A DNA stretch of 40,840 bases from Deltaproteobacteria bacterium RIFCSPHIGHO2_02_FULL_43_33 (GTDB lineage: Bacteria; Desulfobacterota; GWC2-55-46; UBA9637): positions 1-40,840 of the forward strand of contig MGRL01000057.1 of the NCBI GenBank assembly GCA_001798165.1, given 5' to 3'. Both the position numbers and the translations under genes were made by a program. This document shows, one piece after another, positions 3,469 through 40,769 of this stretch; the first letter of the stretch is position 1; every line of letters begins with the position of its first letter. The notes under the pieces are model-generated. The model worked only from the letters and a program-made list of their open reading frames with translations, had not been told where the DNA came from and did not search any database.

Positions 3469-3539
3469 CCGTGACCGTTGTCCGTGACCGTGTGAAAAAA
3501 CTTCTTTCACGGCCACGGTTCACGGTCACGAATCACGGC
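3469..3539. repeat. Inverted degenerate repeat of CCGTGACCGT-type units
   Basis: CCGTGACCGTTGTCCGTGACCGTG...CACGGCCACGGTTCACGGTCACGAATCACGG; two arms of opposite orientation. Confidence 0.85.
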
Positions 3540-3548
3540 ATTATTTTT

Positions 3549-4442
3549 ATGAACGAGAAAAAACATGTCCCCGAAGGCTTTAATCGGGGAACTGAAGTCT
3601 CCATAGGTCTGATACAGACAGCGGTTACGAAAGATATTCAGGAGAATATTCAAAAGACCGTCTCGTTTGTAAGAAAGGCTGCGGCGCAAGGCGCTCAGAT
3701 TATCTGCCTTCAGGAGCTTTTCAGCACCGTCTATTTCCCCCAGCATGAAAGGCTTGATGCATCAGGGTTTGCAGAGCCCATACCCGGGGATATGGTAAGC
3801 CTCTTTGCAAGATTGGCAAAGGAGTTAGGCATTGTTATCATCGTCCCTCTGTTTGAAAAGGCACAGAACGGCAACTATTACAATTCCGCCGCCACCATAG
3901 ACGCGGACGGAAACATCCTGGGCGTATATCGCAAGATACATATCCCCTTTGATAAGCTCTTCTATGAGAAGAATTATTTTAAAGACGGCGATTTGGGATA
4001 TCATGTCTATAAAACCAGGTTCGCTTCCATAGGGGTACTCATCTGCTATGACCAGTGGATCCCGGAAGCAGCAAGGATAAATACGCTCATGGGCGCGGAT
4101 ATCCTGTTTTATCCGACTGCCATAGGCTGGATAAAGGGGCACACCTCAAAAGACGGCGACTGGCACAATGCGTGGGAGACCGTGCAGCGCGGACATGCCA
4201 TAGCAAACGGAGTTCATGTTGCCGCAATAAACAGGGTGGGAGAGGAAGACCAGCTTCAATTCTGGGGCGGATCGTTTGTTGCTGATGCCTTCGGCAAGGT
4301 GCTGAAAAAGGCGAGCCATACAGAGGAAGAGGCTCTGGTTGTCCAAGTGGATTTGGGAATGAATAAGATGATCCGGGATGGATGGGGCTTTCTGAATAAT
4401 AGGAGGCCGGATACTTATCAGCGGATTTGCAAACCATCATGA
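3549..4442 (+). CDS. aguB: N-carbamoylputrescine amidase
   Basis: Nitrilase-fold motifs (CLQELF, YRKIHIP, ICYDQWIPEAAR); adjacent to agmatine deiminase. Confidence 0.92.
   Translation: MNEKKHVPEGFNRGTEVSIGLIQTAVTKDIQENIQKTVSFVRKAAAQGAQIICLQELFSTVYFPQHERLDASGFAEPIPGDMVSLFARLAKELGIVIIVPLFEKAQNGNYYNSAATIDADGNILGVYRKIHIPFDKLFYEKNYFKDGDLGYHVYKTRFASIGVLICYDQWIPEAARINTLMGADILFYPTAIGWIKGHTSKDGDWHNAWETVQRGHAIANGVHVAAINRVGEEDQLQFWGGSFVADAFGKVLKKASHTEEEALVVQVDLGMNKMIRDGWGFLNNRRPDTYQRICKPS
3568..3590. repeat. Palindrome within the aguB 5' coding region
   Basis: TCCCCGAaggctttaaTCGGGGA, translated as VPEGFNRGT. Confidence 0.6.
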
Positions 4443-5530
4443 CTAAACAATCCTTGAACCCCCCCAAAAAACTCGGCTACTCCATGCCTGCGGAATGGGA
4501 AAGACATGATGCGATCTGGCTCTCATGGCCGCACGACCCCATAACTTTTCCCGACAGGGTGGAAAAGGTGGAAAAGATTTACAGCGAAATAATCAAAACT
4601 ATCATGGTCAGCGAAAAGGTAAACCTCTTTGTCCAAGACAGCGCAATGAAAAAGAGGGCGCAAGGGATTTTAAAACAGTGCGGCGTAAACCCTGATGACA
4701 TTGTATTTCACATATACGACTATGCGGATGTGTGGTTCAGGGATTACGGCCCGATCTTTCTCGTGAACAAAAAGAGCGGCAGCCTTGCCATGAGTCACTG
4801 GATATTCAATGCATGGGGGGAGAAATATGAAACCCTGATGAAGGACACCCGCATCCCTGAATTTATCAACCGAAGCATGAATATCCCCTGCTTCGCGCCC
4901 GGCATCGTGCTTGAAGGCGGCTCCATAGATGTAAACGGAAAAGGGACGCTCCTCACCACCGAGCAGTGCCTTCTCAATAAAAACAGAAATCCCCAGTTGA
5001 GCAAATCCGAGATAGAGGAATATCTCATGGAATATCTCGGCGTGAGTCATATCATCTGGCTGAAAAACGGCATTGAAGGAGACGACACGGACGGACATAT
5101 AGACGACATCGCGAGATTCGTCAATCCCGCAACCGTGCTTTGCGCATATGAAGAAAACAGGAACGACATAAATTATCCCATGCTCCACGAAAATTACGAA
5201 ATACTCCGCAGCGCAAAAGACCAAAGCGGCAATAAGCTGAATGTGATAAAACTGCCCATGCCCGGAGCCGTAGGTGATGAGGAAGGGATGCTCCCTGCAA
5301 GCTACGCGAATTTTTATATCGGCAATACCGTCGTGTTGGTTCCGGTCTTCGGACATGAAAACGACGCCAAGGCGCTGGATATTATTCAACTCCAATTCCC
5401 TGATCGCAAGGTTGCAGGGATAAACTGCTCCGATTTGGTTTACGGCCTCGGCACGCTCCACTGCATAAGCCAGCAGCAGCCTGCTGTAGGTATAAGGTAT
5501 GAACAGGAAGATATGAAATTGCAAAAATAA
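4439..5530 (+). CDS. aguA: Agmatine deiminase
   Basis: MPAEWERHDAIWLSWPHD, DVWFRDYGPIF, LEGGSIDVNG, IEGDDTDGHIDDIARF. Confidence 0.95.
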   Translation: MTKQSLNPPKKLGYSMPAEWERHDAIWLSWPHDPITFPDRVEKVEKIYSEIIKTIMVSEKVNLFVQDSAMKKRAQGILKQCGVNPDDIVFHIYDYADVWFRDYGPIFLVNKKSGSLAMSHWIFNAWGEKYETLMKDTRIPEFINRSMNIPCFAPGIVLEGGSIDVNGKGTLLTTEQCLLNKNRNPQLSKSEIEEYLMEYLGVSHIIWLKNGIEGDDTDGHIDDIARFVNPATVLCAYEENRNDINYPMLHENYEILRSAKDQSGNKLNVIKLPMPGAVGDEEGMLPASYANFYIGNTVVLVPVFGHENDAKALDIIQLQFPDRKVAGINCSDLVYGLGTLHCISQQQPAVGIRYEQEDMKLQK

Positions 5531-9276: not shown

Positions 9277-10026
9277 ATGGATAAAAAATCCACCACACAC
9301 TTCGGCAATCAGATAATACCTGCTGAGGAAAAAAAACAGAGGGTGCAGGAGATATTTTCTTCTGTTGCGGACAAATACGACCTGATGAATGACCTCATGA
9401 GCCTTGGCACGCACAGGCTCTGGAAGAGGTTTGTGGCGGAAAAGACCAATCTCAGAGAGGGCGATTCTGCAATAGATGTGTGCGGCGGGACTGCTGATAT
9501 AGCAATGCTTATGGTAAAGAGGGTTGGTGAAAAAGGAAAGATTGTCGTTTATGACATCAACAAGGAAATGCTGGAATTTGGCAGAGAGAAATGCATTGAC
9601 AAAGGCTTTCTAAAAAACATTCAGTATGTGCAGGGAGATGCAGAGGAGATAGCCTTTGCTAACAATACCTTCCACTGCGCAACGGTCGGCTTTGGCATAA
9701 GGAATGTTACCTATCTGGAAAAGGCGTTTAAGGAGATGATGCGCGTGGTAAAGCCGGGCGGCCGGGTTATCTGCCTTGAATTTTCTCATCCCACATCAAA
9801 TGTGTTCAGTAAGCTCTACGACCTTTACTCTTTTAAGGTTATGCCTGAAATTGGCGAAGTAGTTACCGGCAACCGTGAGGCCTATACTTACCTGCCGGAA
9901 TCCATCAGAAAATTTCCGACCCAGGAAGAATTGAAAAAGCTCATGGAAGGGGTCGGCCTTTTTAAGGTCAAATACTATAATTTCTTTAACGGCATTGCTG
10001 CGGTGCATATAGGAACAAAAGTATGA
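9277..10026 (+). CDS. ubiE: Demethylmenaquinone/ubiquinone methyltransferase
   Basis: FSSVADKYDLMNDLMSLGTHRLWKR, VCGGTADIA, GFGIRNV. Confidence 0.95.
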   Translation: MDKKSTTHFGNQIIPAEEKKQRVQEIFSSVADKYDLMNDLMSLGTHRLWKRFVAEKTNLREGDSAIDVCGGTADIAMLMVKRVGEKGKIVVYDINKEMLEFGREKCIDKGFLKNIQYVQGDAEEIAFANNTFHCATVGFGIRNVTYLEKAFKEMMRVVKPGGRVICLEFSHPTSNVFSKLYDLYSFKVMPEIGEVVTGNREAYTYLPESIRKFPTQEELKKLMEGVGLFKVKYYNFFNGIAAVHIGTKV

Positions 10027-10460
10027 AGTCAGGGGTCAGGAGTCAGAAGTCAGAATTTAAACAAAGGTTAAAGGAAAAAGCTCTGCAATATCTACAGTTT
10101 CCGTTGAGGCTAACCCCGCTTTGGATTGAGGCGATTGGCATGGGCGCTGTAATGGGTGCAATTGTTGACAGCAACAAAAAGTTTAAAGAACGTCTGAAGG
10201 AGATTGACGACAAGATATTTTCATTTGAGGCATCAGACCTAAACAAAAAATTTTATCTTCATATTAAGAATGGAGATATAAAGATAATTCCGCATCTTGC
10301 AAAAACGCCTGATGTTGTTATGAAAGGTGAGGCTAAAATATTCTTTGGGCTTCTTTTAGGCAAAGAAGACCCGGATACCGTGTTTTTCTCAAGAAAACTG
10401 GAGATAAGCGGAGATACATCTGCGGCAATACATTTTAAGAATATATTGAACAGCCTATAA
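10023..10460 (+). CDS. SCP-2 sterol-transfer-like protein (UbiJ/UbiT-like?)
   Basis: FYLHIKNGDIKIIPHLAKTPDVVMKGEAKIFFGLLLGKEDP; 4-nt overlap with ubiE. N-terminus contains a GTCAGGAGTCAG repeat. Confidence 0.7.
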   Translation: MKSGVRSQKSEFKQRLKEKALQYLQFPLRLTPLWIEAIGMGAVMGAIVDSNKKFKERLKEIDDKIFSFEASDLNKKFYLHIKNGDIKIIPHLAKTPDVVMKGEAKIFFGLLLGKEDPDTVFFSRKLEISGDTSAAIHFKNILNSL

Positions 10461-14940: not shown

Positions 14941-15015
14941 TAAATATCGCAAATGGAAGACTGGAAATTTTAAAATGAATTTACAATTTGCATTTTGCAA
15001 TCTACATTTTACAAT
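14941..15015. repeat. Degenerate A/T-rich repeat preceding the secretion ATPase
   Basis: aatttacaatttgcattttgcaatctacattttacaat. Confidence 0.6.
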
Positions 15016-15030
15016 GGAGCGAAGCGGCTT

Positions 15031-16752
15031 ATGTCTATAATGGATCAAAAAATTTGCGATATTCTTTTTAATAAAGGTCTTATTACCGAAGGTCAGATAG
15101 ACACTGTCCTTAGCAGGGCGCGGGGGCAGAACTCTCTGGAGAAGCTCCTTTTGGAGGAGCAGATTGTAGGTGAGGAAGAGTTAACAAAGGCAGTTGCCGA
15201 AGGTTTTGGCCTTGGATACATTGACCCGTCCTCCCTTCCTCAAAAACCTCTGATAAGCGAAATTTCACCGGAGCTTATGCACAAGTATGCCTTCATTCCT
15301 ATAAAGAAGGAAAATGGGAAGCTGCTGATTGCTGTCCATAATCCGTCAGATATAGTAAAGATAGATGAACTGGAGTCGCTTTTAAATTCCAAGATAGACC
15401 TCATGGTTGCCAGCAGGTCTGCTATTGAAAATATACTCAAGAGGCTGCGTGAAGGAGAGGAGCTTCTTCATGAGATATCAGAGGAGTTCAGGTTTCAGCT
15501 GGTCAGGGAAACCGAGGCCGGCGATGAGGTCATATCGCTGGAGAAGCTGCGCGGGGATGAAAGTCCGATAGTAAGGCTGGTAGATTCAGCCATCTATAAT
15601 GCAGTAGAGAAACGGGCCTCGGACATACATATTGAGACAACAACAAACGAGGTGATAGTAAAATACAGGATTGACGGCGTCCTGTATCCTGCGATGGAGC
15701 CGATTCAGAAGAAATATCATTCCTCCATCATATCCAGGATAAAGATTATGTCAGAGCTTGATATTGCAGAGAAACGTGTGCCGCAGGATGGAAGATTTAA
15801 ACTTAAGATAAACGGCAAGACAATAGACTTTCGCGTCTCCATCATGCCCAGCATATTCGGCGAGGATGCAGTTATCAGAATACTTGACAAGGAGCATCTC
15901 TCTAAGGAATTTGCCAAGCTCAGCCTTGATGGATTAGGCTTTGAAGGGGATTTGCTTGCCAAAATAAGGCGAAATACAAAAAAGCCGTACGGCATGCTGC
16001 TGGTGACAGGGCCAACAGGTTCAGGCAAGACAACTACCCTCTACGCTGCGATTACCGAGATAAACAATGAAGAGGACAAGATTATTACTATTGAAGACCC
16101 TGTAGAGTATCAGCTCCAGGGGGTGGTGCAGGTGCCGGTGAATGAAAAAAAAGGCCTCACCTTTGCGCGCGGGCTGCGCTCTATCCTTCGGCACGACCCT
16201 GACAAGATAATGGTAGGGGAAATGAGGGATTCTGAGACAGCACAGATAGCTGTCCAGTCTGCGCTTACCGGACATCTGGTATTTACCACTGTCCATGCAA
16301 ACAATGTGATAGATGTTATCGGCAGGCTATTGAACATGGGGGTTGAGCCGTACAACTTTGTTTCAGCATTGAACTGCATCCTTGCGCAAAGGCTCGTAAG
16401 AAATATATGCCATGCCTGCAAAGAGTCTGTGAAGCTGCCAAGGCAGCTTTTAGAAGAGTCGGGCCTTGATGCAGAAAAATATGAGAATCACATATTTTTT
16501 GAGGGCCGAGGCTGTTCAGAGTGCAACAATACCGGTTATCACGGCAGGACAACAATAGCCGAATTTCTGGAGCTTTCAGATGCTATTCGGGAGATGATAC
16601 TTGAAAAGCGCCCCTTTGCTGACATAAAAAAGAGGGCAAAGGAAGAAGGCATGGTGTTCTTGAGAGAATCGGCTATTGAAAAGGTTTTGAAGGGCATAAC
16701 TACACTCAAGGAAATAAACAGGGTTACATTTGTGGAGGCCAAATGGACTTGA
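15031..16752 (+). CDS. GspE/PilB family secretion ATPase
   Basis: VTGPTGSGKTTTLYA Walker A, GEMRDSETAQIAVQSALTGHLVFTTVHAN, CxxC zinc pairs. Confidence 0.95.
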   Translation: MSIMDQKICDILFNKGLITEGQIDTVLSRARGQNSLEKLLLEEQIVGEEELTKAVAEGFGLGYIDPSSLPQKPLISEISPELMHKYAFIPIKKENGKLLIAVHNPSDIVKIDELESLLNSKIDLMVASRSAIENILKRLREGEELLHEISEEFRFQLVRETEAGDEVISLEKLRGDESPIVRLVDSAIYNAVEKRASDIHIETTTNEVIVKYRIDGVLYPAMEPIQKKYHSSIISRIKIMSELDIAEKRVPQDGRFKLKINGKTIDFRVSIMPSIFGEDAVIRILDKEHLSKEFAKLSLDGLGFEGDLLAKIRRNTKKPYGMLLVTGPTGSGKTTTLYAAITEINNEEDKIITIEDPVEYQLQGVVQVPVNEKKGLTFARGLRSILRHDPDKIMVGEMRDSETAQIAVQSALTGHLVFTTVHANNVIDVIGRLLNMGVEPYNFVSALNCILAQRLVRNICHACKESVKLPRQLLEESGLDAEKYENHIFFEGRGCSECNNTGYHGRTTIAEFLELSDAIREMILEKRPFADIKKRAKEEGMVFLRESAIEKVLKGITTLKEINRVTFVEAKWT

Positions 16753-17657
16753 AAAAGGGCGTTTCTGCTGGTATAGAGATTAGCCGGGAATATATAAGTG
16801 TAGTCGAACTTGAGTCTGGAGACAGAGAGGTTACACTGAAAAGATGCGGGAGTGTAGAGAATACCTCTTTGCTTGTAAACCCGTCACTTAGCGCAGGGAA
16901 TATCGCAGATGAAGAAAAATTTAAGGCGCTAATAAAGAATCTTCTGGATAGCAGCTCTATAAACAGCAAATATATAGCAGTAGCCCTGCCTGATAATAGC
17001 GTAAGGATTACATTCCTTGAATTTGAGGATATCCCGGCAGAAAGGGAAAGGGTTATTGCGATGATAAAATGGAATCTTAAAAAGACCATCCCGTTCTCAG
17101 TAGATGAGACAGTAGTAGACTTTCAGTTGATAGATACCCCTGCTGTTGAAAATCGTTTATATCGGCTGGTTGTTGTTCTTGCAAGAAAGACTGTTTTAGA
17201 CCAATATGAGAGGCTCTTGAAAGAATGTCACCTTTATCCCAATAGCATAACCCCATCCTCCCTTGCTGTGTACAACCTCTACCACGACACTATTGTCAAG
17301 CCTGATTTATGCGCCCTCCTATCAGTATCCACAGACAGGATAGCTGTTCTAATTGTCAAAAATGGCAAGCCGTGTTTTTATAGGAGCAAGGAAGTAGATG
17401 ATGAAAATGAAGGGTTAAGGGAGATATTGGCCTCTTTAAACTATTATCAGGATGTTTATAGGGCTATGCCGGCAGAGATATATCTTGTGAACCTCAGACT
17501 GGGGCTTGCTGATTTAAAGGCTGACTTGGAGAGGCAGTTGGGTAATATAGATTTAAAACTTCTCAACATGGCGGATATGGTAAAAGGCGTTAATGCGTCC
17601 ATGAATATCTTCTCAGGCGCGGCAGGCGCTGCGTTAAAGGCAGAAAATGAGAAGTGA
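16743..17657 (+). CDS. pilM: PilM/GspL-like protein
   Basis: GIEISREYISVVELESGD actin-like start; located between secretion ATPase and PilN-like genes. Confidence 0.8.
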   Translation: MDLKKGVSAGIEISREYISVVELESGDREVTLKRCGSVENTSLLVNPSLSAGNIADEEKFKALIKNLLDSSSINSKYIAVALPDNSVRITFLEFEDIPAERERVIAMIKWNLKKTIPFSVDETVVDFQLIDTPAVENRLYRLVVVLARKTVLDQYERLLKECHLYPNSITPSSLAVYNLYHDTIVKPDLCALLSVSTDRIAVLIVKNGKPCFYRSKEVDDENEGLREILASLNYYQDVYRAMPAEIYLVNLRLGLADLKADLERQLGNIDLKLLNMADMVKGVNASMNIFSGAAGAALKAENEK

Positions 17658-17673
17658 GAAATGAGAAAAGTAA

Positions 17674-18228
17674 ATGCGTCTTAAAATAAATCTTGCACAG
17701 ACAGATTACAAAAAACAGCCAATCTTGTATTGGACATACCTTCCTTTACTGCTGCTCCTCATTGTTACCTTGACAGGCAATCTCTACTGGTATCATGCTG
17801 TAACTGCCGATGTTGCAAGATATAGCGAATTGCTGGGCAAGACAGAGGAAAGGCCTTTCAAGACACAGGCGCTGCCCGAAGAATCTGTTTCCCAAAGAGA
17901 TAAAGAGTCTTTGATAAAAGAGGCAACTCTTGTAAACAATATCATTAAAGGCAGGTCTCTATCGTGGTCAGGTCTTCTTGCGCAGCTTGAGAAAGAGATT
18001 ATACCTGATGTAAGCCTTGTGAGTCTTACTCCAAAGATTATTGAAGACAGGATAAGGATTGATATAAAAGGTGTTGGAAAAGATCTGGAAACCATCACCC
18101 ATTTTATGGATAAACTTGAAAGGTCGCCGTCGTTTCAGGGCGTATTTCTCTCGCATTCTACTGATGCTGAAGTAAATGGAGAGCGGATGGTTAACTTTAC
18201 TATGGAACTGGAGTATATTGGGAAATGA
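17674..18228 (+). CDS. pilN: PilN-like protein
   Basis: RLKINLAQTDYKK + single TM + coiled region; operon position. Confidence 0.75.
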   Translation: MRLKINLAQTDYKKQPILYWTYLPLLLLLIVTLTGNLYWYHAVTADVARYSELLGKTEERPFKTQALPEESVSQRDKESLIKEATLVNNIIKGRSLSWSGLLAQLEKEIIPDVSLVSLTPKIIEDRIRIDIKGVGKDLETITHFMDKLERSPSFQGVFLSHSTDAEVNGERMVNFTMELEYIGK

Positions 18229-18725
18229 AAAAAAATTACCTCTACGGCTTGATTGCAATCATTGCGGTTACTAACATCGGGTTCTATTATGGCCTGATAC
18301 TTCCTCAGAAGATAAAGGCAGACAATATCTTTAAGGAGATTGAGGCGAAGAGAAGCGAAAGACTATCTGTCAAGTCTCCTGCTACCTTTGCAGAGGCAAG
18401 GGCTGATATAGCAAAGTTCAGAGAGATGCTTTCCAACAAGGCTGATATGACAAAGATTATACGAGAACTGAACAGCCTTGCCAGAGGCGCATCCCTTGCC
18501 ATCCATGATATATCATACCAATCTAAGAAGGCCGGAGAAGAGGGCATCTCCCCCGTTTCTTTTTCCTTCCCCGTAGAGGGGAGATACAGCAATATTAAAA
18601 ATTTTATTTATAAGTTGGAGAGCTCCAAGAGGTTAATTACTATAGATGATATGAGCCTGGAAAAGGCATCGGGTAAGGAAGATATACGTTTGAAGATAAA
18701 GGTGTCGGTTTACCTTAAAAGCTGA
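18225..18725 (+). CDS. pilO: PilO-like protein
   Basis: Single TM and PilO-like ferredoxin-fold segment; overlaps the PilN stop. Confidence 0.75.
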   Translation: MKKNYLYGLIAIIAVTNIGFYYGLILPQKIKADNIFKEIEAKRSERLSVKSPATFAEARADIAKFREMLSNKADMTKIIRELNSLARGASLAIHDISYQSKKAGEEGISPVSFSFPVEGRYSNIKNFIYKLESSKRLITIDDMSLEKASGKEDIRLKIKVSVYLKS

Positions 18726-18742
18726 AATGAGAGTGTAAAAAA

Positions 18743-19306
18743 ATGGATAAAAAAAAGCTACTATATATACTGTTGGCGGCGCTCGGCATAGCTGTCTTAT
18801 ACAGGCTAACAACTGTTCCTGAAGAGAAGAGGGTGCCTCTGAAGTATAAGACAGGGGCAAAGACAGGTTCGAAGTCAGGCCTGCCCCCGAGTGTTTCTAT
18901 CGGGGGGCAGGAGTTTAAAACAGGCAAAGAGAATATACCAAAGGTAGAATTATCAAAGCTTTTATCCATAAAAAGGCGGCCTCCAACAGACGGCATTAAT
19001 CTTTTCTCTCCCTTTTTTATAAAAGAACCGCCCAAACTGCCTGAGCCGCCAAAGCAGCCTTTGCCTCCGCCTGTTGACCCTCTGGAAGAGGAATTAAAAC
19101 TGTTTCGCTTTATGGGTTTTCTGGAAAAGAAAGAGCCTTTTGGCCGCGATAAAAAAATCTTCTTGGCTAAAGGCCAAAATATATATATAGTAAAGAGCGG
19201 GGAAATTATTGAAGGCAGATTCAAGGTGAATGTGATGCAGGGCATGATAGAGATATCTATAATTGATTCTGAGAAGAGGGTTACAATTCCGGCAGAGGAG
19301 AAATAG
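18743..19306 (+). CDS. PilP-like assembly protein
   Basis: Single TM, proline-rich linker, C-terminal beta domain; between PilO and the secretin. Confidence 0.65.
   Translation: MDKKKLLYILLAALGIAVLYRLTTVPEEKRVPLKYKTGAKTGSKSGLPPSVSIGGQEFKTGKENIPKVELSKLLSIKRRPPTDGINLFSPFFIKEPPKLPEPPKQPLPPPVDPLEEELKLFRFMGFLEKKEPFGRDKKIFLAKGQNIYIVKSGEIIEGRFKVNVMQGMIEISIIDSEKRVTIPAEEK
18881..18910. repeat. Palindrome inside the pilP-like gene
   Basis: CTGCCCCCGagtgtttctatCGGGGGGCAG, translated LPPSVSIGGQ. Confidence 0.75.
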
Positions 19307-21259
19307 ATGATAAAAAAGGCAATTACGAATTACGATTTACGATTTACGAATTTAAAATCTAAAATCGTAAATCTTAAACCTCAAATCCTTGTACTGTTCA
19401 CTGTATTTGTATTTACCGGTTGCGCGGGCAAATGGGCGTACCAGAGAGGAGATGATTTTGCCAACGCGGGGAAATGGGATGAGGCTGTAATTGCCTTTAC
19501 AGAGGCGTCGCAGAAAGAGCCTGATAACGTGGAATACAATATCCGCCTGATTATGGCTAAGGAAAGGGCGTCGGAGTATCATTATCAAAAAGGATCAGAG
19601 GCAGTGCAGCAGGATAAACTTGAGGAAGCTGTCCGAGAGCTCCAGATGGCGGTAGCCTTGAATCCGGCAAATAGTTCCGCGGATTCAGAACTGCAAAAGG
19701 CGGCAAAGACAAAAGAGTCCCGCATGCATTATGAATTGGGATTGGAGCTTGAGAAACAGGGGAAATATGCCGAGGCAATAACTGAATTTCAGGAAGCTGT
19801 CAGAATAGACCCGAGAAATGCTAAAGCCAAGACTGCAAAAGAGACTGCTGGAGAGCGGCAGAAGAAGGCATTGGAAGAGCAGATAGCCAAGGAAAGGTCA
19901 GAGAAGCCTTTATATTCTGCAAAACCGATTACCCTGCAACTGAAAGATGTTCAGCTTAAGCAGGCGTTTGAAATACTGGCCAAGACAGTTGGCCTTAGCG
20001 TATTGTTTGACGATGGGGTAAAGGATGTAAGGACAACATTTTTCATAAAAGACAGTCCTTTCAGCCGTGCCCTTGAACTTATGCTCAGGACAAACAACTT
20101 ATTTAAAAAGCAGATAGATGATAATACTATCCTTGTTATCCCTGACACCCCTGCCAAGAGAAAGCAGTATGAAGAACTGGTGATACAGTCCTTTTATCTC
20201 TCTAATTCAGACGCAAAGAAGGCAGTGAATATGCTGAGGACCCTTCTGAATATCCGTCAGGTGCATGTGAATGAAGATCTGAATTCCATCATTGTAAGGG
20301 AGACTTCTGAGAAAATGGAGCTGGTGAAAAAACTCCTTGATGCCAATGACAAGGCAGATGCAGAGGTATACCTTGATTTGGAGCTTCTTGAGGTAAACCG
20401 CACCAAGATTAGAGAGATGGGCCTTAAATTAAGTCAATATTCAGTAACCGCCGGCATTGCGCCGGCGGCCGGCAAACTTGGCGATGTTCTTACCTTGGGT
20501 CTTTTAAAAGACCTGTCAGACGGCAACTATCTCTTTTCCATACCTACAGCAGCCCTTAATTTTGCAAAATCCGAGGGGTTGGTGAAGACGTTGGCAAACC
20601 CAAGGATAAGGGTCTTAAACAGGAAGAAGGCGCGCTTTGCCATTGCTGACAGGGTGCCTGTAGCCATATCTACAACGACTGTTGCGCAGACCTCAACAAC
20701 CGGCGCCACCCCTGAATATAAAGAAGTCGGCGTTAAAATGGATTTTATTCCTACGGTGCATACAGAATCTAATGAGGTTACCCTTGAGGTGAAGCTTGAA
20801 GTGTCATCGCTTGGGGAAAAGGTTACGCTTCAGGCAGAGGGTAAGACAACAGAGGCATTTGCTACAAGGAGCAGGAATGCAGAGACCTTTTTAAGATTAA
20901 AGGACGGCGACAAAGCGGTCCTGGCCGGCCTTATCTCTGACACCGAAAGGACATCCACATCGAAGATTCCGTTTTTGTCGGATATGCCGGTCTTAGGCGC
21001 ACTTTTCACGGCAAAGGATGATAGAACAGAGGAAACAGATATACTCATGTCCATAACTCCGAGAATTGTAAGGGTGATAGAGATTCTCCCTGATGAGGAC
21101 AAACCCATGCCATCCGGCAAAGAGGAGACTTATACAGGAGGGTCATTGCCGCCCCTTGCGCCTCCGTCAATGCCTATGCCGGCGCCATTCCAACCACCGT
21201 CAGGGCTTCCTGAAGAGCCGGCAGGATTCATACCGCCTCCCCCGCCAATGCCGCAGTAG
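19307..21259 (+). CDS. TPR-containing lipoprotein secretin (PilQ/GspD-like)
   Basis: Lipobox VFTGC; TPR repeats; secretin domain VPVAISTTTVAQTS...YKEVGVKMDFIPTV...LKDGDKAVLAGLI. Confidence 0.92.
   Translation: MIKKAITNYDLRFTNLKSKIVNLKPQILVLFTVFVFTGCAGKWAYQRGDDFANAGKWDEAVIAFTEASQKEPDNVEYNIRLIMAKERASEYHYQKGSEAVQQDKLEEAVRELQMAVALNPANSSADSELQKAAKTKESRMHYELGLELEKQGKYAEAITEFQEAVRIDPRNAKAKTAKETAGERQKKALEEQIAKERSEKPLYSAKPITLQLKDVQLKQAFEILAKTVGLSVLFDDGVKDVRTTFFIKDSPFSRALELMLRTNNLFKKQIDDNTILVIPDTPAKRKQYEELVIQSFYLSNSDAKKAVNMLRTLLNIRQVHVNEDLNSIIVRETSEKMELVKKLLDANDKADAEVYLDLELLEVNRTKIREMGLKLSQYSVTAGIAPAAGKLGDVLTLGLLKDLSDGNYLFSIPTAALNFAKSEGLVKTLANPRIRVLNRKKARFAIADRVPVAISTTTVAQTSTTGATPEYKEVGVKMDFIPTVHTESNEVTLEVKLEVSSLGEKVTLQAEGKTTEAFATRSRNAETFLRLKDGDKAVLAGLISDTERTSTSKIPFLSDMPVLGALFTAKDDRTEETDILMSITPRIVRVIEILPDEDKPMPSGKEETYTGGSLPPLAPPSMPMPAPFQPPSGLPEEPAGFIPPPPPMPQ
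19319..19390. repeat. Degenerate GATTTACGAATT repeat forming the secretin signal peptide
   Basis: aattacgaattacgatttacgatttacgaatttaaaatctaaaatcgtaaatcttaaacctcaaatcc, translated ITNYDLRFTNLKSKIVNLKPQI. Confidence 0.85.
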
Positions 21260-21311: not shown

Positions 21312-21743
21312 GTGCATGATATGAAAAATGGTTTCACACTTATAGAGCTGGTAATTGTTATGGTTGTGCTGGCAATACTGGCGTCTGTGGCTATGCCGCT
21401 TGCCAGGGTATCTGTGAAAAAGGGTAAGGAGCTTGAACTAAGGCAGGGTTTGAGAATCATGAGGCAGGCCATTGACAAATACAAAGAGAATTACGATAAA
21501 CACCTTTATAAAAAAGAGGAAGAGATTGACCGGTCCGGCTATCCAAAAACCCTTGATGAGCTTGTGGAAAAAAAGGTCTTAAGGCGCATACCAATAGACC
21601 CTTTTACAGGCAAGGCTGACTGGATTACAAGGTCATATACTGATGACCCGGAAAGCAGTATGAGCGATGGAAAGGATGTTTTTGATATAATATCTGCGTC
21701 AGAAGGGGTTGCCCTGGATGGGACAAAGTATAGTGAGTGGTGA
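21312..21743 (+). CDS. Type II secretion/type IV pseudopilin (GspG-like)
   Basis: MHDMKNG/FTLIELVIVMVVLAILASVA prepilin signal. Confidence 0.92.
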   Translation: MHDMKNGFTLIELVIVMVVLAILASVAMPLARVSVKKGKELELRQGLRIMRQAIDKYKENYDKHLYKKEEEIDRSGYPKTLDELVEKKVLRRIPIDPFTGKADWITRSYTDDPESSMSDGKDVFDIISASEGVALDGTKYSEW

Positions 21744-21830
21744 TGATAAAATGATTTACGATTTACGATTTACGATTTACGATTTTAAACCGAAAACCGA
21801 AAATCGAAATTCGAAAATACAGGAGCGGGG
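21738..21830 (+). repeat. 93-bp perfect direct repeat, copy 1 (pilin leader)
   Basis: TGGTGATGATAAAATGATTTACGATTTACG...GAAAATACAGGAGCGGGG identical to 22186-22278. Confidence 0.97.
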
Positions 21831-22191
21831 TTTTACCCTCATAGAGCTCCTTATCGTCATGAGCATAATAGCTATCCTTGCGACTATTGCCCAGCCTTCT
21901 TTTAAGCAGGCTGCTATTAAGGCAAGGGAGGCTGTTTTAAAAGAAGACCTTTTTGTGTTCAGGGATACAATTGATAAATACTACAGCGACCACGGTAAAT
22001 ATCCGCCTGCCCTTGATGAGCTTGCAAAAGAAGGCTACATAAGGGGAGTTCCAAAGGATCCATTTACAAATTCTACGGAAACATGGCAGCTTATATACAG
22101 TGAAGCCGAAGGCGAGGAGCAGGGTATATACGATGTGCATAGCGGGAGCGATTTGATTGCAGCGGATGGGACGCCGTATAACGAATGGTGA
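21751..22191 (+). CDS. Pseudopilin with repeat-derived leader
   Basis: MIYDLRFTIYDFKPKTENRNSKIQERG/FTLIELLIVMSIIAILATIA; GspG-like C-terminal region. Confidence 0.9.
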   Translation: MIYDLRFTIYDFKPKTENRNSKIQERGFTLIELLIVMSIIAILATIAQPSFKQAAIKAREAVLKEDLFVFRDTIDKYYSDHGKYPPALDELAKEGYIRGVPKDPFTNSTETWQLIYSEAEGEEQGIYDVHSGSDLIAADGTPYNEW

Positions 22192-22278
22192 TGATAAAAT
22201 GATTTACGATTTACGATTTACGATTTACGATTTTAAACCGAAAACCGAAAATCGAAATTCGAAAATACAGGAGCGGGG
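22186..22278 (+). repeat. 93-bp perfect direct repeat, copy 2 (pilin leader)
   Basis: Identical to 21738-21830. Confidence 0.97.
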
Positions 22279-22714
22279 CTTCACCCTTATCGGTCTTGCG
22301 ATTATTATAGTAATAATAGGAATTGTGTTGATGGCGGTGAGCAGGGTTCACAGCACCATTGCCAAGATTGATAAGGAAGAGGAGCTTTTGTTTAGAGGGG
22401 ATGAAATCAAGGATGCTATTGACTCTTACTTTAAAAACGGCAATACCTATCCGAGAAACTTTGATGAGCTTCTGAAAGATCAGAGAGGTATAAACCCAAG
22501 GAGGCATCTCAGGAAATTATACAAAGACCCTATAACCAATGGGGAGTGGGATGTAATCAAAGATAAGGCTGAAAGGATTACAGGGGTAAGAAGCAAGAGC
22601 GATAAAGAACCTCTGAAAAAAGCCAACTTCCATGAGGAGTACAAGTTGTTTGAGGGAAAGACAAAATACAGCGAGTGGGAATTTGTCAGTCAGCCGAAGA
22701 TTGGGGGGAAGTAA
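22199..22714 (+). CDS. Pseudopilin-like protein with repeat-derived leader lacking Glu5
   Basis: MIYDLRFTIYDFKPKTENRNSKIQERG/FTLIGLAIIIVIIGIVLMAVS. Confidence 0.85.
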   Translation: MIYDLRFTIYDFKPKTENRNSKIQERGFTLIGLAIIIVIIGIVLMAVSRVHSTIAKIDKEEELLFRGDEIKDAIDSYFKNGNTYPRNFDELLKDQRGINPRRHLRKLYKDPITNGEWDVIKDKAERITGVRSKSDKEPLKKANFHEEYKLFEGKTKYSEWEFVSQPKIGGK

Positions 22715-28950: not shown

Positions 28951-31900
28951 ATGAATCTATCCTCTCTCCTCTCCAAAGACCATATCCTCCTTGACTTCCG
29001 GGCAAAAGACCATACTGAGGCGTTAAGAAATATGGTTTGCCTTCTCGGCAAGGCATGTGAGGATGAAGCATCTATCAAGGCACTTAAAGATCATGAAAGC
29101 ATAGATGGTGTTTTGCTTGGCACCGGTTCTGCCGTATTCCACACCTTTTCAGATACAGTAGAGGATATAAAGGTTATCCTCTCTCTTTCTCAGCGCGGCA
29201 TACCTCATCCGACAAAAAGAAGAGAAAAAATACACATACTGTTTCTTCTTGTTTCTCCTATCACGGAGAGTGGCACGCACTTCCAGTTGCTCTCAAGGCT
29301 TGAGGGTTTTCTTTTAAACAAGGTCTTCCGCAACGCAATCCTTTCGGCAAAGACAAAAGAGGCTGTTACATCTGTAATGAAAAGAGAAGAAGGGTTGGGC
29401 ATAGATGCATATATCCCTTTGGCAAAAGAAGATATATTTGCAGAGCTTAATACCAGAGAGACGGGGCTTACAGAAGAAGATGTTGCGCATAGGTTTAAAA
29501 CCGTCGGCCCCAATATCCTTCAAAGGGTTAAAAAGAAATATCTCCTCTATGATTTTCTGCAAAATTTAACAAATCTTTTTGCAATACTCCTCTGGCTGGG
29601 CGGCATATTGGCATTTATTGCAGATATGCCTGAGCTTGGTTGGGCAATATTCCTCGTTATCATTATCAATGCGTTTTTTAGTTTCTGGCAGGAGTATAAG
29701 GCAGAGCGGGCTGTGGAGGCGCTACAGAAGCTCCTTCCGCAAAAGGTAAAGGTTATAAGAGGAGGCACTGAAAAAGATATACCAGGCAGCGAGCTTGTGC
29801 CGGGAGATATTATTCTTTTGAGCGAAGGCGATAATATCCCTGCTGACGGGAGGCTGATTGAGGCCGATGATATGCGTGTTGACAACAGCCCCCTAACAGG
29901 CGAGTCAAAGCCTGTATATAAAATGGCAGAGTCTTTGGAAAATGGCAAAAACTTTATCTGGACAGAGATGCCGAATCTTATATTTGCCGGCACAGGCGTG
30001 CTCTCTGGCATTGGCAGGGCAGTTGTCACAGCAACAGGCATGGATACTGAGATCGGCAAGGTTGCCTATCTTACTCAGGCTATTAAGGCAGAGATGAGCC
30101 CCTTGCAGAAGGAGATGGTAAGGGTAACAAAGGTAGTCACATGGATAGCAATAAGCTTGGGGCTTATGTTCTTTCTTCTCGGTTTTAAAATAGCAGGGCT
30201 TACCTTAACAGAGAGTTTTATATTTGCCATAGGCATCATTGTTGCGAATGTGCCTGAGGGCCTGCTTCCGACAGTCAGCCTTTCTCTTGCAATGGGCGTT
30301 CAGAGGATGGCAGGAAAAAATGCCATTGTAAAAAAGCTCTCGGCAGTAGAAACCCTCGGCTCTGTCAATGTTATATGCACGGATAAAACAGGAACGCTTA
30401 CCACAAACCAGATGTGTGTAACCCAGCTATGGGTTAATGGAAAGATAATAGGGATTACAGGAGAAGGGTATGAGCCAAAAGGGGATTTTATATGGAATAA
30501 CAAAATACTTTCTTCAGATGATTTAAAAAGGGAAGAGATTGATGAGCTTCTGAAAGCAGCGAGCCTTTGCAATAATGCGCATCTTATTGTCCCTTTGCAA
30601 AAGGGCGCAGGCGGAGGATGGTCAATTTCAGGCGACCCGACAGAGGGCGCGTTGGTTGTTGCCGCTGAAAAGGCCGGGCTGCGTTTGGAGGAGCTAAAAA
30701 AGCAAAACCCAAGGGTCGCCCATCTTGCATTTGAAAGAATAAGAAAGAGGATGACGACAATACATGAAATACAGGGGCAAGGGGCATCCGCCTCAGGCGG
30801 AGGCAAGGGGCAAGAAGTAGGGTGGGCTATGCCCACCAATCAGGAGTCAGGAGTCAGGAGTGTTATTGCTTATGTTAAGGGGGCGCCGAGAGAGACTTTA
30901 ACTCTCTGCACAAAGATAAAAAAAGCTGGAAAGATTGTTGAACTCACAGAACAGGAGAGAGATGAAATTTTAAAACAGAACGATTTGATGGCGACAAAGG
31001 GTCTACGGGTGCTGGCGGTGGCATACAGAGATATTTCGGATTTCGGATTTCGGATTTCGGATTTAAAATCTCAAACCTCAAATCCCAAATCTCAAATCTA
31101 TACAACGGAAGAGGTGGAGAAGGATTTAACATTCATCGGCCTTGCTGCAATGTTTGACCCGCCGAGACCGGAGGTTAAAAAGGCGATTGATGAGTGCCAC
31201 ACTGCCGGTATCAGGGTAATTGTGATGACAGGCGACTATGGCTTGACTGCCCAGTCAATTGCCAGAGAGGTAGGCATAGGCGGCGATAGCCCGAAGATTG
31301 TGACAGGCATTGAGCTTTCAAAACTTTCCCACAGAGAATTAAAGGAGCTCCTTAAAAAAGGCGAGACAATATTTGCAAGGGTTGCGCCAAAAGACAAGCT
31401 CAGGGTTGTTTCAACATTGCAGGAGATTGGTGAGATTGCGGCTGTTACTGGCGACGGCGTAAATGATGCGCCGGCTTTGAAAAAGGCTGACATAGGCATT
31501 GCAATGGGCATGCGCGGAAGCGATGTGGCAAAGGAGTCAGCGGAGATAGTTCTGGCAGACGACAATTTTGCAACCATTGTGGAGGCGATACGGGAAGGGA
31601 GGGCAGTCTATGCAAATATAAGAAAGTTTGTGACATACATCTTTGCAAGCAATATCCCTGAGATTGTTCCGTTTATTGCATTTGTCTTATTCAAGATACC
31701 TTTGCCCCTGACCGTGATGCAGATACTGGCTGTTGATTTGGGTACAGATGTTGTTCCTGCCCTCGGTCTTGGCGTGGAGCCGCCTGAAAAGGGGATTATG
31801 AGCCAGCCACCAAGGCCAAAGACAAAAAGGCTTCTGGATTTTTCCCTTCTTGCAAGGGCATATCTCTTTCTTGGGCCTATAGAGGCAATCTTGTGCATGG

Positions 31901-32280
31901 CCGGGTTTTTCTTTGTTTACTGGTCAAGCGGCTGGCGTCCCGGCATGGAGATGGCTTCAGGCGGTATTGTCTACACAACAGCAACAACCATGACCCTTGC
32001 AGGCATTGTCGCATCACAGATAGGGAATGTGTTTGCATGCAGGGCAGAAAAGGAATCTGTCTTCAGCGCGGGGTTTTTTAAAAACAGGCTTGTGTTGTTC
32101 GGCATTTTGGTTGAGGTGGTGCTTATATTGCTGCTTACATATATTCCTTTCATGCAGGGCGTTTTTGGCCTTGCGCCGCTGGGATTGAGAGAGTGGGCAT
32201 TTTTACTATCCTTTCCAGTAATTGTGTTAATAATGGAGGAGGGGAGGAAAAGGGTGATAAGGGGAAGAATACAAGATTAA
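28951..32280 (+). CDS. P-type (P2-like) cation ATPase with N-terminal PTS EIIA-like domain
   Basis: DNSPLTGESKPVYK, ICTDKTGTLTTNQ, TGDGVNDAPALKKADIGIAMG, ANVPEGLLPTVSLS; residues 1-~150 resemble PTS_EIIA_2. Confidence 0.92.
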   Translation: MNLSSLLSKDHILLDFRAKDHTEALRNMVCLLGKACEDEASIKALKDHESIDGVLLGTGSAVFHTFSDTVEDIKVILSLSQRGIPHPTKRREKIHILFLLVSPITESGTHFQLLSRLEGFLLNKVFRNAILSAKTKEAVTSVMKREEGLGIDAYIPLAKEDIFAELNTRETGLTEEDVAHRFKTVGPNILQRVKKKYLLYDFLQNLTNLFAILLWLGGILAFIADMPELGWAIFLVIIINAFFSFWQEYKAERAVEALQKLLPQKVKVIRGGTEKDIPGSELVPGDIILLSEGDNIPADGRLIEADDMRVDNSPLTGESKPVYKMAESLENGKNFIWTEMPNLIFAGTGVLSGIGRAVVTATGMDTEIGKVAYLTQAIKAEMSPLQKEMVRVTKVVTWIAISLGLMFFLLGFKIAGLTLTESFIFAIGIIVANVPEGLLPTVSLSLAMGVQRMAGKNAIVKKLSAVETLGSVNVICTDKTGTLTTNQMCVTQLWVNGKIIGITGEGYEPKGDFIWNNKILSSDDLKREEIDELLKAASLCNNAHLIVPLQKGAGGGWSISGDPTEGALVVAAEKAGLRLEELKKQNPRVAHLAFERIRKRMTTIHEIQGQGASASGGGKGQEVGWAMPTNQESGVRSVIAYVKGAPRETLTLCTKIKKAGKIVELTEQERDEILKQNDLMATKGLRVLAVAYRDISDFGFRISDLKSQTSNPKSQIYTTEEVEKDLTFIGLAAMFDPPRPEVKKAIDECHTAGIRVIVMTGDYGLTAQSIAREVGIGGDSPKIVTGIELSKLSHRELKELLKKGETIFARVAPKDKLRVVSTLQEIGEIAAVTGDGVNDAPALKKADIGIAMGMRGSDVAKESAEIVLADDNFATIVEAIREGRAVYANIRKFVTYIFASNIPEIVPFIAFVLFKIPLPLTVMQILAVDLGTDVVPALGLGVEPPEKGIMSQPPRPKTKRLLDFSLLARAYLFLGPIEAILCMAGFFFVYWSSGWRPGMEMASGGIVYTTATTMTLAGIVASQIGNVFACRAEKESVFSAGFFKNRLVLFGILVEVVLILLLTYIPFMQGVFGLAPLGLREWAFLLSFPVIVLIMEEGRKRVIRGRIQD
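30772..30861. repeat. Composite repeat cluster inside the ATPase gene
   Basis: aggggcaaggggcatCCGCCTCAGGCGGaggcaaggggcaag + GGTGGGCtatGCCCACC + caggagtcaggagtcaggag. Confidence 0.85.
31033..31100. repeat. GGATTTC tandem repeat plus opposite-orientation AAATCTCA repeat inside the ATPase gene
   Basis: atttcggatttcggatttcggatttcggatttaaaatctcaaacctcaaatcccaaatctcaaatc; in-frame SDFGFRISDLKSQTSNPKSQ. Confidence 0.9.
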
Positions 32281-40434: not shown

Positions 40435-40440
40435 AAAAAA

Positions 40441-40534
40441 GGTTTCAAGTTGCAAGTTGCGAGCTGCAAGTCTTGACTTGAATCTTGAATCTTGCATCTT
40501 GCAGCTTTCTTTGCATCTTGAATCTTGCATCTTG
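40441..40534. repeat. Degenerate CTTGAATCTTGCAT repeats between tRNA-Arg and tadA
   Basis: caagttgcaagttgcgagctgcaagtcttgacttgaatcttgaatcttgcatcttgcagctttctttgcatcttgaatcttgcatcttg. Confidence 0.85.
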
Positions 40535-40542
40535 TTTTTTTC

Positions 40543-40619
40543 TGGTGCGCCCAGAGGGATTCGAACCCCCGACCCCTTGGTTCGTAGCCAAGTACTCTGT
40601 CCAACTGAGCTATGGGCGC
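40543..40619 (-). tRNA. tRNA-Arg(ACG), CCA encoded
   Basis: GCGCCCATAGCTCAGTTGGACAGAGTACTTGGCTACGAACCAAGGGGTCGGGGGTTCGAATCCCTCTGGGCGCACCA; anticodon loop CTACGAA. Confidence 0.97.
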
Positions 40620-40769
40620 AAGGCCGTGATTTGTTAGCACATATTTTTAACATCTTTACGATATGAGAGTCAATCCCAAAACTTAAGCCTGCATAATAAA
40701 GAAAATTGATCCCAAAAATAGGCCTTAATTTTTGGGTTGATAATATATATATGTTGTCAACAAATAGAT

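Follow-up and report, generated by a model that had tools for sequence, protein, structure and literature searches.

Heptanucleotide repeat arrays as predicted prepilin and export leaders in an uncultured bacterial family

The pilin operon and its 93-bp repeat

The window, by which we mean the whole 40,840-nt stretch of DNA analysed, comes from a groundwater bacterium of an uncultured family and contains a type IV filament operon, in which a PilB/GspE-type ATPase, PilM, PilN, PilO and a TPR-secretin are accompanied by three GspG-like pilins.

14995-16752, + strand: PilB/GspE-type assembly ATPase of the pilin operon (PF00437, PF05157)
16743-19306, + strand: PilM, PilN, PilO and a gene in the PilP position, pilin operon (PF11104, PF05137, PF04350)
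19307-21259, + strand: TPR-secretin lipoprotein (Secretin, PF00263), with an N-terminus (19320-19387) that is a copy of the element family described below (alignment)
21312-21743, + strand: pilin 1, GspG-like, short leader VHDMKNG or MKNG (PF07963; TIGR01710/TIGR02532)
21751-22191, + strand: pilin 2, GspG-like, 27-residue element-encoded leader at 21751-21831 (PF07963, E=3.5e-9)
22199-22714, + strand: pilin 3, 27-residue element-encoded leader at 22199-22279, mature protein beginning FTLIGL (translation, profile searches)

Pilin 1 bears the short conventional leader that a sequence-only reading of this DNA had ascribed to it, of seven residues from GTG or four from ATG. Pilin 2 also matches TIGR02532 (E=3.7e-9), and its predicted cleavage site lies after ERG, i.e. 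RG^FTLIE, the -1 Gly being counted in the 27-residue leaders of both pilin 2 and pilin 3; a prepilin peptidase (PF01478, E=2.5e-23) is encoded in the genome at G000:C7:11341-11661. Pilin 3 matched no Pfam family by protein scan, and its N_methyl stretch scored above the cut-off in the genome search. The residue at mature position +5 is Glu in pilins 1 and 2, and Gly in pilin 3 and its orthologues in two related genomes (G001 and G002), which we take to liken pilin 3 to initiator-type minor pseudopilins.

The junctions between pilins 1 and 2, and between pilins 2 and 3, share a 93-bp segment that runs from the last Trp codon of the upstream pilin, through its stop codon and the ATG of the next gene, and ends just inside the -1 Gly codon.

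21738-21830, + strand: 93-bp repeat, copy 1, with the stop of pilin 1 and the ATG and leader of pilin 2; maximal exact match
21753-21785, + strand: (GATTTAC)4.7 array of copy 1, first arm of the dyad (TRF, 100% match)
21787-21817, + strand: (AAACCGA)4.4 array of copy 1, second arm, imperfectly complementary (TRF, 87% match)
22186-22278, + strand: 93-bp repeat, copy 2, with the stop of pilin 2 and the ATG and leader of pilin 3; maximal exact match
22201-22233, + strand: (GATTTAC)4.7 array of copy 2 (TRF, 100% match)
22235-22265, + strand: (AAACCGA)4.4 array of copy 2 (TRF, 87% match)

The match is exact and cannot be extended at either end, which bears out the earlier claim of an identity covering stop, start and leader up to the predicted cleavage site. 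In both copies TRF resolves the core as a 7-bp-periodic imperfect dyad, (GATTTAC)n followed by (AAACCGA)n, and the non-repeat part of the identity comprises 15 nt upstream and 13-16 nt downstream; including these flanks outside the heptamer repeat, the identity is far beyond chance. From their respective copies, pilins 2 and 3 both read MIYDLRFTIYDFKPKTENRNSKIQERG^FTLI. The sequence-only reading had described the leader as composed of tandem units, which holds for the tandem structure and fails for the unit itself, as TRF gives a unit of 7 bp and the supposed unit GATTTACGATTTACG therefore counts as two. On the sense strand the pilin element folds no better than shuffled sequences (z=0.1; antisense, z=-3.8), and a sense-strand hairpin as regulator was rejected for this reason. 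At the dyads at 21741-21835, 31025-31105 and 19307-19400 the antisense strand was more stable than the coding strand, the pilin dyad most so.

Downstream of 21751, no further ATG, GTG or TTG precedes the Gly codon, so that a true start downstream for pilins 2 and 3, a possibility raised in the earlier reading, fails for these three codons; if ordinary start codons are used, then the element is translated. The ATG at 21751 lacks an evident Shine-Dalgarno sequence, so translation would have to be coupled to the immediately preceding stop codon. We infer from the sequence that the leaders are productively translated and cleaved. A 27-residue leader is expected to remain functional, since prepilin export and cleavage depend mainly on a leader that is hydrophilic, carries a net positive charge and has Gly at -1, and its length is made plausible by documented prepilin leaders of 6-26 residues, or about 15-30 in type IVb (PMC4471445). 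In form the predicted leaders resemble type IV prepilin (class III) signal peptides, in which a hydrophilic leader ending in Gly is followed by FTLIE and a hydrophobic helix (PMC4471445); unlike usual class III leaders, they are repeat-derived and extend to 27 residues on GspG-like pilins, where pilin 3 orthologues have five.

Ancestry of the leaders and identity of the two copies

As the sequence-only reading had proposed, the locus was compared between this genome (G000) and its relatives, G001 from the same genus and G002 from the same family. Pilin gene order is identical in G000, G001 and G002, and ordinary leaders occupy both junctions in the two relatives: pilin 2 of G001 reads ...MGNKG^FTLIEL and pilin 3 MNSKG^FTLIGL, while in G002 pilin 3 is again MNSKG^FTLIGL and pilin 2 is MKRIGKKTAMEWFKHNKG^FTLIEL, with a different, degenerate heptamer array between pilins 1 and 2, upstream of the pilin 2 leader. 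By this comparison the three pilin genes are old, the ordinary leaders ancestral and the element leaders an innovation of the lineage leading to this species; since both relatives have the ordinary type at each junction, the element leaders are derived, and younger than the gene duplication. Mature pilin 2 is, judged against G001, under strong purifying selection (dN 0.066, dS 0.93), and divergence between the two 93-bp copies (<3.2%, the 95% bound for 0 differences in 93 sites) lies far under that synonymous divergence.

Adjacent paralogous pilins with an identical 5' segment in both are what a recent tandem duplication of one pilin gene might leave if the leader were yet to diverge. We rejected this explanation, which is scarcely conceivable given that both pilins have separate orthologues in G001 and G002, in the same order and with other leaders, provided that the synteny of those genomes is correctly assembled, and that the mature regions, which the sequence-only reading had said diverge sharply, are only 51% identical in DNA. 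An assembly artefact, whereby a short-read assembler set one repeat at both junctions, is very improbable. The draft is in 126 contigs and repeats are prone to such errors; against this, the junction flanks are unique, each copy matches the reading frame of its pilin, 93 bp is shorter than common read lengths, and a similar arrangement exists in a pair that is not identical. The latter consists of consecutive minor-pilin-type (pilV/pilW-like) genes (L034, 17172 and 17891), with a 55-bp leader segment of GTCTACC-type heptamers that is 93% identical. Within the surrounding minor-pilin cluster (L034:16900-19200, G000 contig C7), pilV/pilW-like genes have heptamer leaders of 50-68 residues with GTCTACC units, and a PilX-like gene has a 33-residue GTCAGAA-type leader.

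Two independent, transposition-like insertions of a mobile element, one per junction, would accord with the dispersal of the element family, as BLAST gives 35 matches to the GATTTAC-type core in G000 and many in other genomes of the family, and with the presence of Y1-type transposases in the genome. We nonetheless consider them unlikely. In the sample of about 541 kb of the 2.19-Mb G000 genome, with one mismatch allowed, neither the 15-nt 5' flank nor the 3' flank AAATACAGGAGCGGGG occurs at a third site, and most other copies align over the repeat core alone (query positions ~16-82). Further, Y1 transposases (PF01797) are also present in G003 and G011, both of which have no element match, leaving a RAYT (Y1) transposase unsupported as the mover. 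No common boundary or duplication was obvious by eye in the aligned cassettes.

Confinement of the flanks to the two pilin junctions, within the G000 sample, favours conversion over two independent insertions. The identity ends where the paralogues share codons (EW-stop, GFTLI), and each pilin gene has its own spelling of GFTLI, the same as that of its orthologue. Together these features point to one junction having recently been converted by the other, and the specificity of the flanks and the ordinary sister leaders support the earlier proposal that conversion or recent homogenisation kept the copies identical. More weakly, we infer pilin 2 as the donor and pilin 3 as the recipient, since the overwritten junction would be the MNSKG one, which is conserved in both relatives. 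The further suggestion that a dispersed repeat had become a secretion leader gains support from the 35 genomic matches and, again, from the sister leaders.

The explanation that we favour, and hold to be probable as a whole, builds on what is established at the level of sequence: the identity of the element, the derived state of its leaders and the enrichment of arrays in export leaders described below. On this view the 93-bp repeat belongs to a class of dispersed arrays with 7-bp periodicity and, often, dyad symmetry. Once this species had separated from its congener, one such array would have come over the start of pilin 2, to give a 27-residue hydrophilic prepilin leader. A segment comprising the stop codon, ATG, element and ERG would then have been copied by gene conversion to the next junction, displacing MNSKG from pilin 3, with crossover points in the codons common to the paralogues on both sides (EW-stop and GFTLI). 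Family-wide, arrays may be tolerated or recruited at loosely constrained sites, including signal peptides, pilin leaders and enzyme loops, and T-rich units of the CTGTTTA type would encode the hydrophobic core itself.

Heptamer arrays in the genome and at export signals

Autocorrelation over the 541-kb sample of G000, to which the array counts refer, revealed 61 lag-7 arrays, compared with 0-8 at the other lags from 4 to 13, and no lag-7 array was found in 320 kb of the class-level control G018. The window itself has seven, its other lags being nearly empty save for the lag-14 harmonic; an Rfam search over the window returned one tRNA only. The units are diverse (42 rotation/strand classes in 64 arrays), and intergenic arrays are above expectation. 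Beyond what the sequence-only reading had noted, the 93-bp element is by its periodicity part of a genome-wide class with many unit sequences, and putative recruitment as an export signal recurs in many unrelated genes.

The leader peptide, sought in 395 genomes of the phylum, was found in G000 and G004 only. A search of 385 genomes for the CTGTTTA-coded core returned scattered matches, mostly in short frames, and outside the family the evidence for leader recruitment comes from two genes in G010, a member of a sister family. An unrelated 'Nitrospirae' prepilin (L099) seemed to have a heptamer leader as well, and was discounted because an ATG beyond the array yields a normal leader of 9 residues. 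Contigs L200-L219 of G003, from the same family, hold many heptamer arrays, yet have no match to the GATTTAC element.

Recruitment was surveyed in G000, G001, G002 and G004 using simple gene calling and a rule based on hydrophobicity, with genes lacking an N-terminal hydrophobic segment as the comparison set. An array lay in the leader of 31 of 261 signal-peptide-type genes and 11 of 731 others (OR 8.8, p=6e-11), counts that start from a simple ORF caller and may include some 5' arrays in untranslated DNA. The hydrophobic core overlaps the array in 14 surveyed genes, such that the array would be the signal there; when these are left out the enrichment persists (OR 4.8, p=6e-5). It is absent from sampled contigs of G003, in the same family (1/51 vs 3/157). 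Hosts confirmed by Pfam include LptE, LptA, LolA, SurA, an outer-membrane efflux protein, an M23 peptidase (EnvC-like), PilQ, a solute-binding protein and SpoIID. The secretin of the G000 pilin operon begins with the same element family as the pilin leaders, and its orthologue in G002 has other heptamer arrays, of which a CTGTTTA-type one codes for the hydrophobic core LLLLTVYCILFF. In alignment, a near-identical cassette, ATGAAAAAG.CAATTACG(AATTACG)nAATTTAAAATCTAAAATCGTAAATC...CTTTTACTGCTTACTG, opens eight unrelated exported proteins distributed over G000, G004 and G010 (three genomes, two families), and the same cassette occurs in EnvC-like proteins of two genera. Consecutive genes with a common heptamer signal-peptide cassette, like the pilin pair, were also observed at L024:2030/2554 and L026:371/1504 (G010 and G004).

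In-frame arrays were likewise found inside BioA, RuvA, LeuRS, a HisH-like glutamine amidotransferase and the P-type ATPase of the window; that in BioA falls at a seven-residue gap of the best PDB homologue, a position also occupied by an array in G004. Tolerance at loosely constrained sites can therefore explain much of the pattern. With the excess of arrays between genes, these in-frame arrays argue for arrays as neutral, tolerated inserts with no special leader role, the enrichment reflecting loose constraint, a view to which we give close to an even chance. It accounts less readily for the 14 genes in which the hydrophobic core itself overlaps the array, and for the retention of one cassette in EnvC-like proteins of two genera. 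Neutral insertion concerns the persistence of arrays, and is compatible with an origin of the two pilin copies by conversion.

The coding properties of the units admit another view. GATTTAC reads DLRFTIY and CTGTTTA reads LFTVYCL on strands free of stops, while the opposite strands have stops. We tentatively entertain the possibility that arrays are portable export-signal cassettes, copied onto and between gene starts, especially those of neighbours, and kept since CTGTTTA-type arrays provide a stop-free hydrophobic heptapeptide (LFTVYCL), and GATTTAC- or AATTACG-type arrays a stop-free polar one; this may constitute a route to new signal peptides of classes I, II and III.

Signal peptides evolve fast under little sequence constraint, and the origin of new ones is rarely visible. 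Here the source appears readable in the DNA, as a 7-bp simple repeat that replaced ancestral leaders, with the states before and after represented in sister genomes. Signal-peptide birth by repeat capture becomes testable in this setting, and simple repeat DNA may be considered as raw material for protein-export signals in this bacterial family. The same arrays carry a warning for annotation, as in genomes of this kind gene starts and peptide stretches like 'VRSQESG' or 'YDLRFTI' may be translated repeats.

Relation to described repeats, and other arrays in the window

An earlier survey found heptanucleotides to be the most frequent class of long simple repeats in the majority of its genomes, and a slippage mechanism with a 7-nt footprint was put forward (as reported in PMC4679880; see also PMC4692102). 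Heptanucleotide LSSRs or STRRs are described from Calothrix, Nostoc, Xanthomonas and Beggiatoaceae (PMC4679880, PMC4692102). The present arrays resemble these bacterial repeats in that 7-bp tandem units, usually in few copies, are dispersed, sometimes inverted, and often near start codons; unlike those, which are mainly intergenic and of one or few units, they involve dozens of unit types, many dyads and coding export leaders. In Geobacter metallireducens, heptanucleotide elements of four units are present in 49 copies of one GC-rich unit, for which a regulatory role was proposed (PMC2700814). As far as the consulted portion of that account extends, these are likewise deltaproteobacterial heptamer tandems within and between genes, and differ in that a leader function is described here and not there.

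Rickettsia palindromic elements, as summarised in PMC10969869, offer a parallel as palindromic, dispersed DNA in frame within unrelated genes. They are, however, ~150 bp long and are reported from metabolic genes, as opposed to the arrays of about 30-100 bp enriched here in signal peptides and pilin leaders, which moreover lack a clear element boundary. Enterobacterial RU insertions, in which single repeat-derived signal peptides were predicted, e.g. in YPO1552, also show a dispersed repeat making up part of a signal peptide (PMC2759123); unlike those isolated predictions, arrays here affect ~12% of sampled signal-peptide-type genes in four genomes, as well as prepilins. Relative to the open-access literature, what appears to be new is the pairing of two features: within a single family, arrays serve as export leaders for numerous core envelope proteins, and sister genomes show the ancestral pilin leaders.

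Four further arrays of the window lie outside the pilin operon.

10027-10057, + strand: GTCAGGA-type heptamer array, beginning of the UbiT ORF (repeat scan, profile search)
30834-30861, + strand: heptamer array (TCAGGAG), in frame in the P-type ATPase (repeat scan)
31030-31099, + strand: heptamer dyad (ATTTCGG/AAATCTC), in frame in the same P-type ATPase (TRF)
40440-40534, - strand: heptamer dyad separating tRNA-Arg from tadA and included in the tadA ORF (TRF)

The UbiT (SCP2 domain) ORF at 10023-10460 begins with its GTCAGGA array, and the conserved domain starts from residue 29. The P-type cation ATPase (28951-32280) carries a fused N-terminal PTS IIA-like domain (~residues 1-146), a fusion that looks unusual. 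At 40440-40653, the tadA ORF as called takes in the tRNA-Arg and the heptamer dyad that immediately precede tadA; the gene probably begins further downstream than the called start, around the MQEALKEAEKA stretch. Finally, a nitrilase-family-like ORF overlaps an agmatine-deiminase-like ORF at 3471-5530, a pair that we take to resemble N-carbamoylputrescine amidase and agmatine deiminase.
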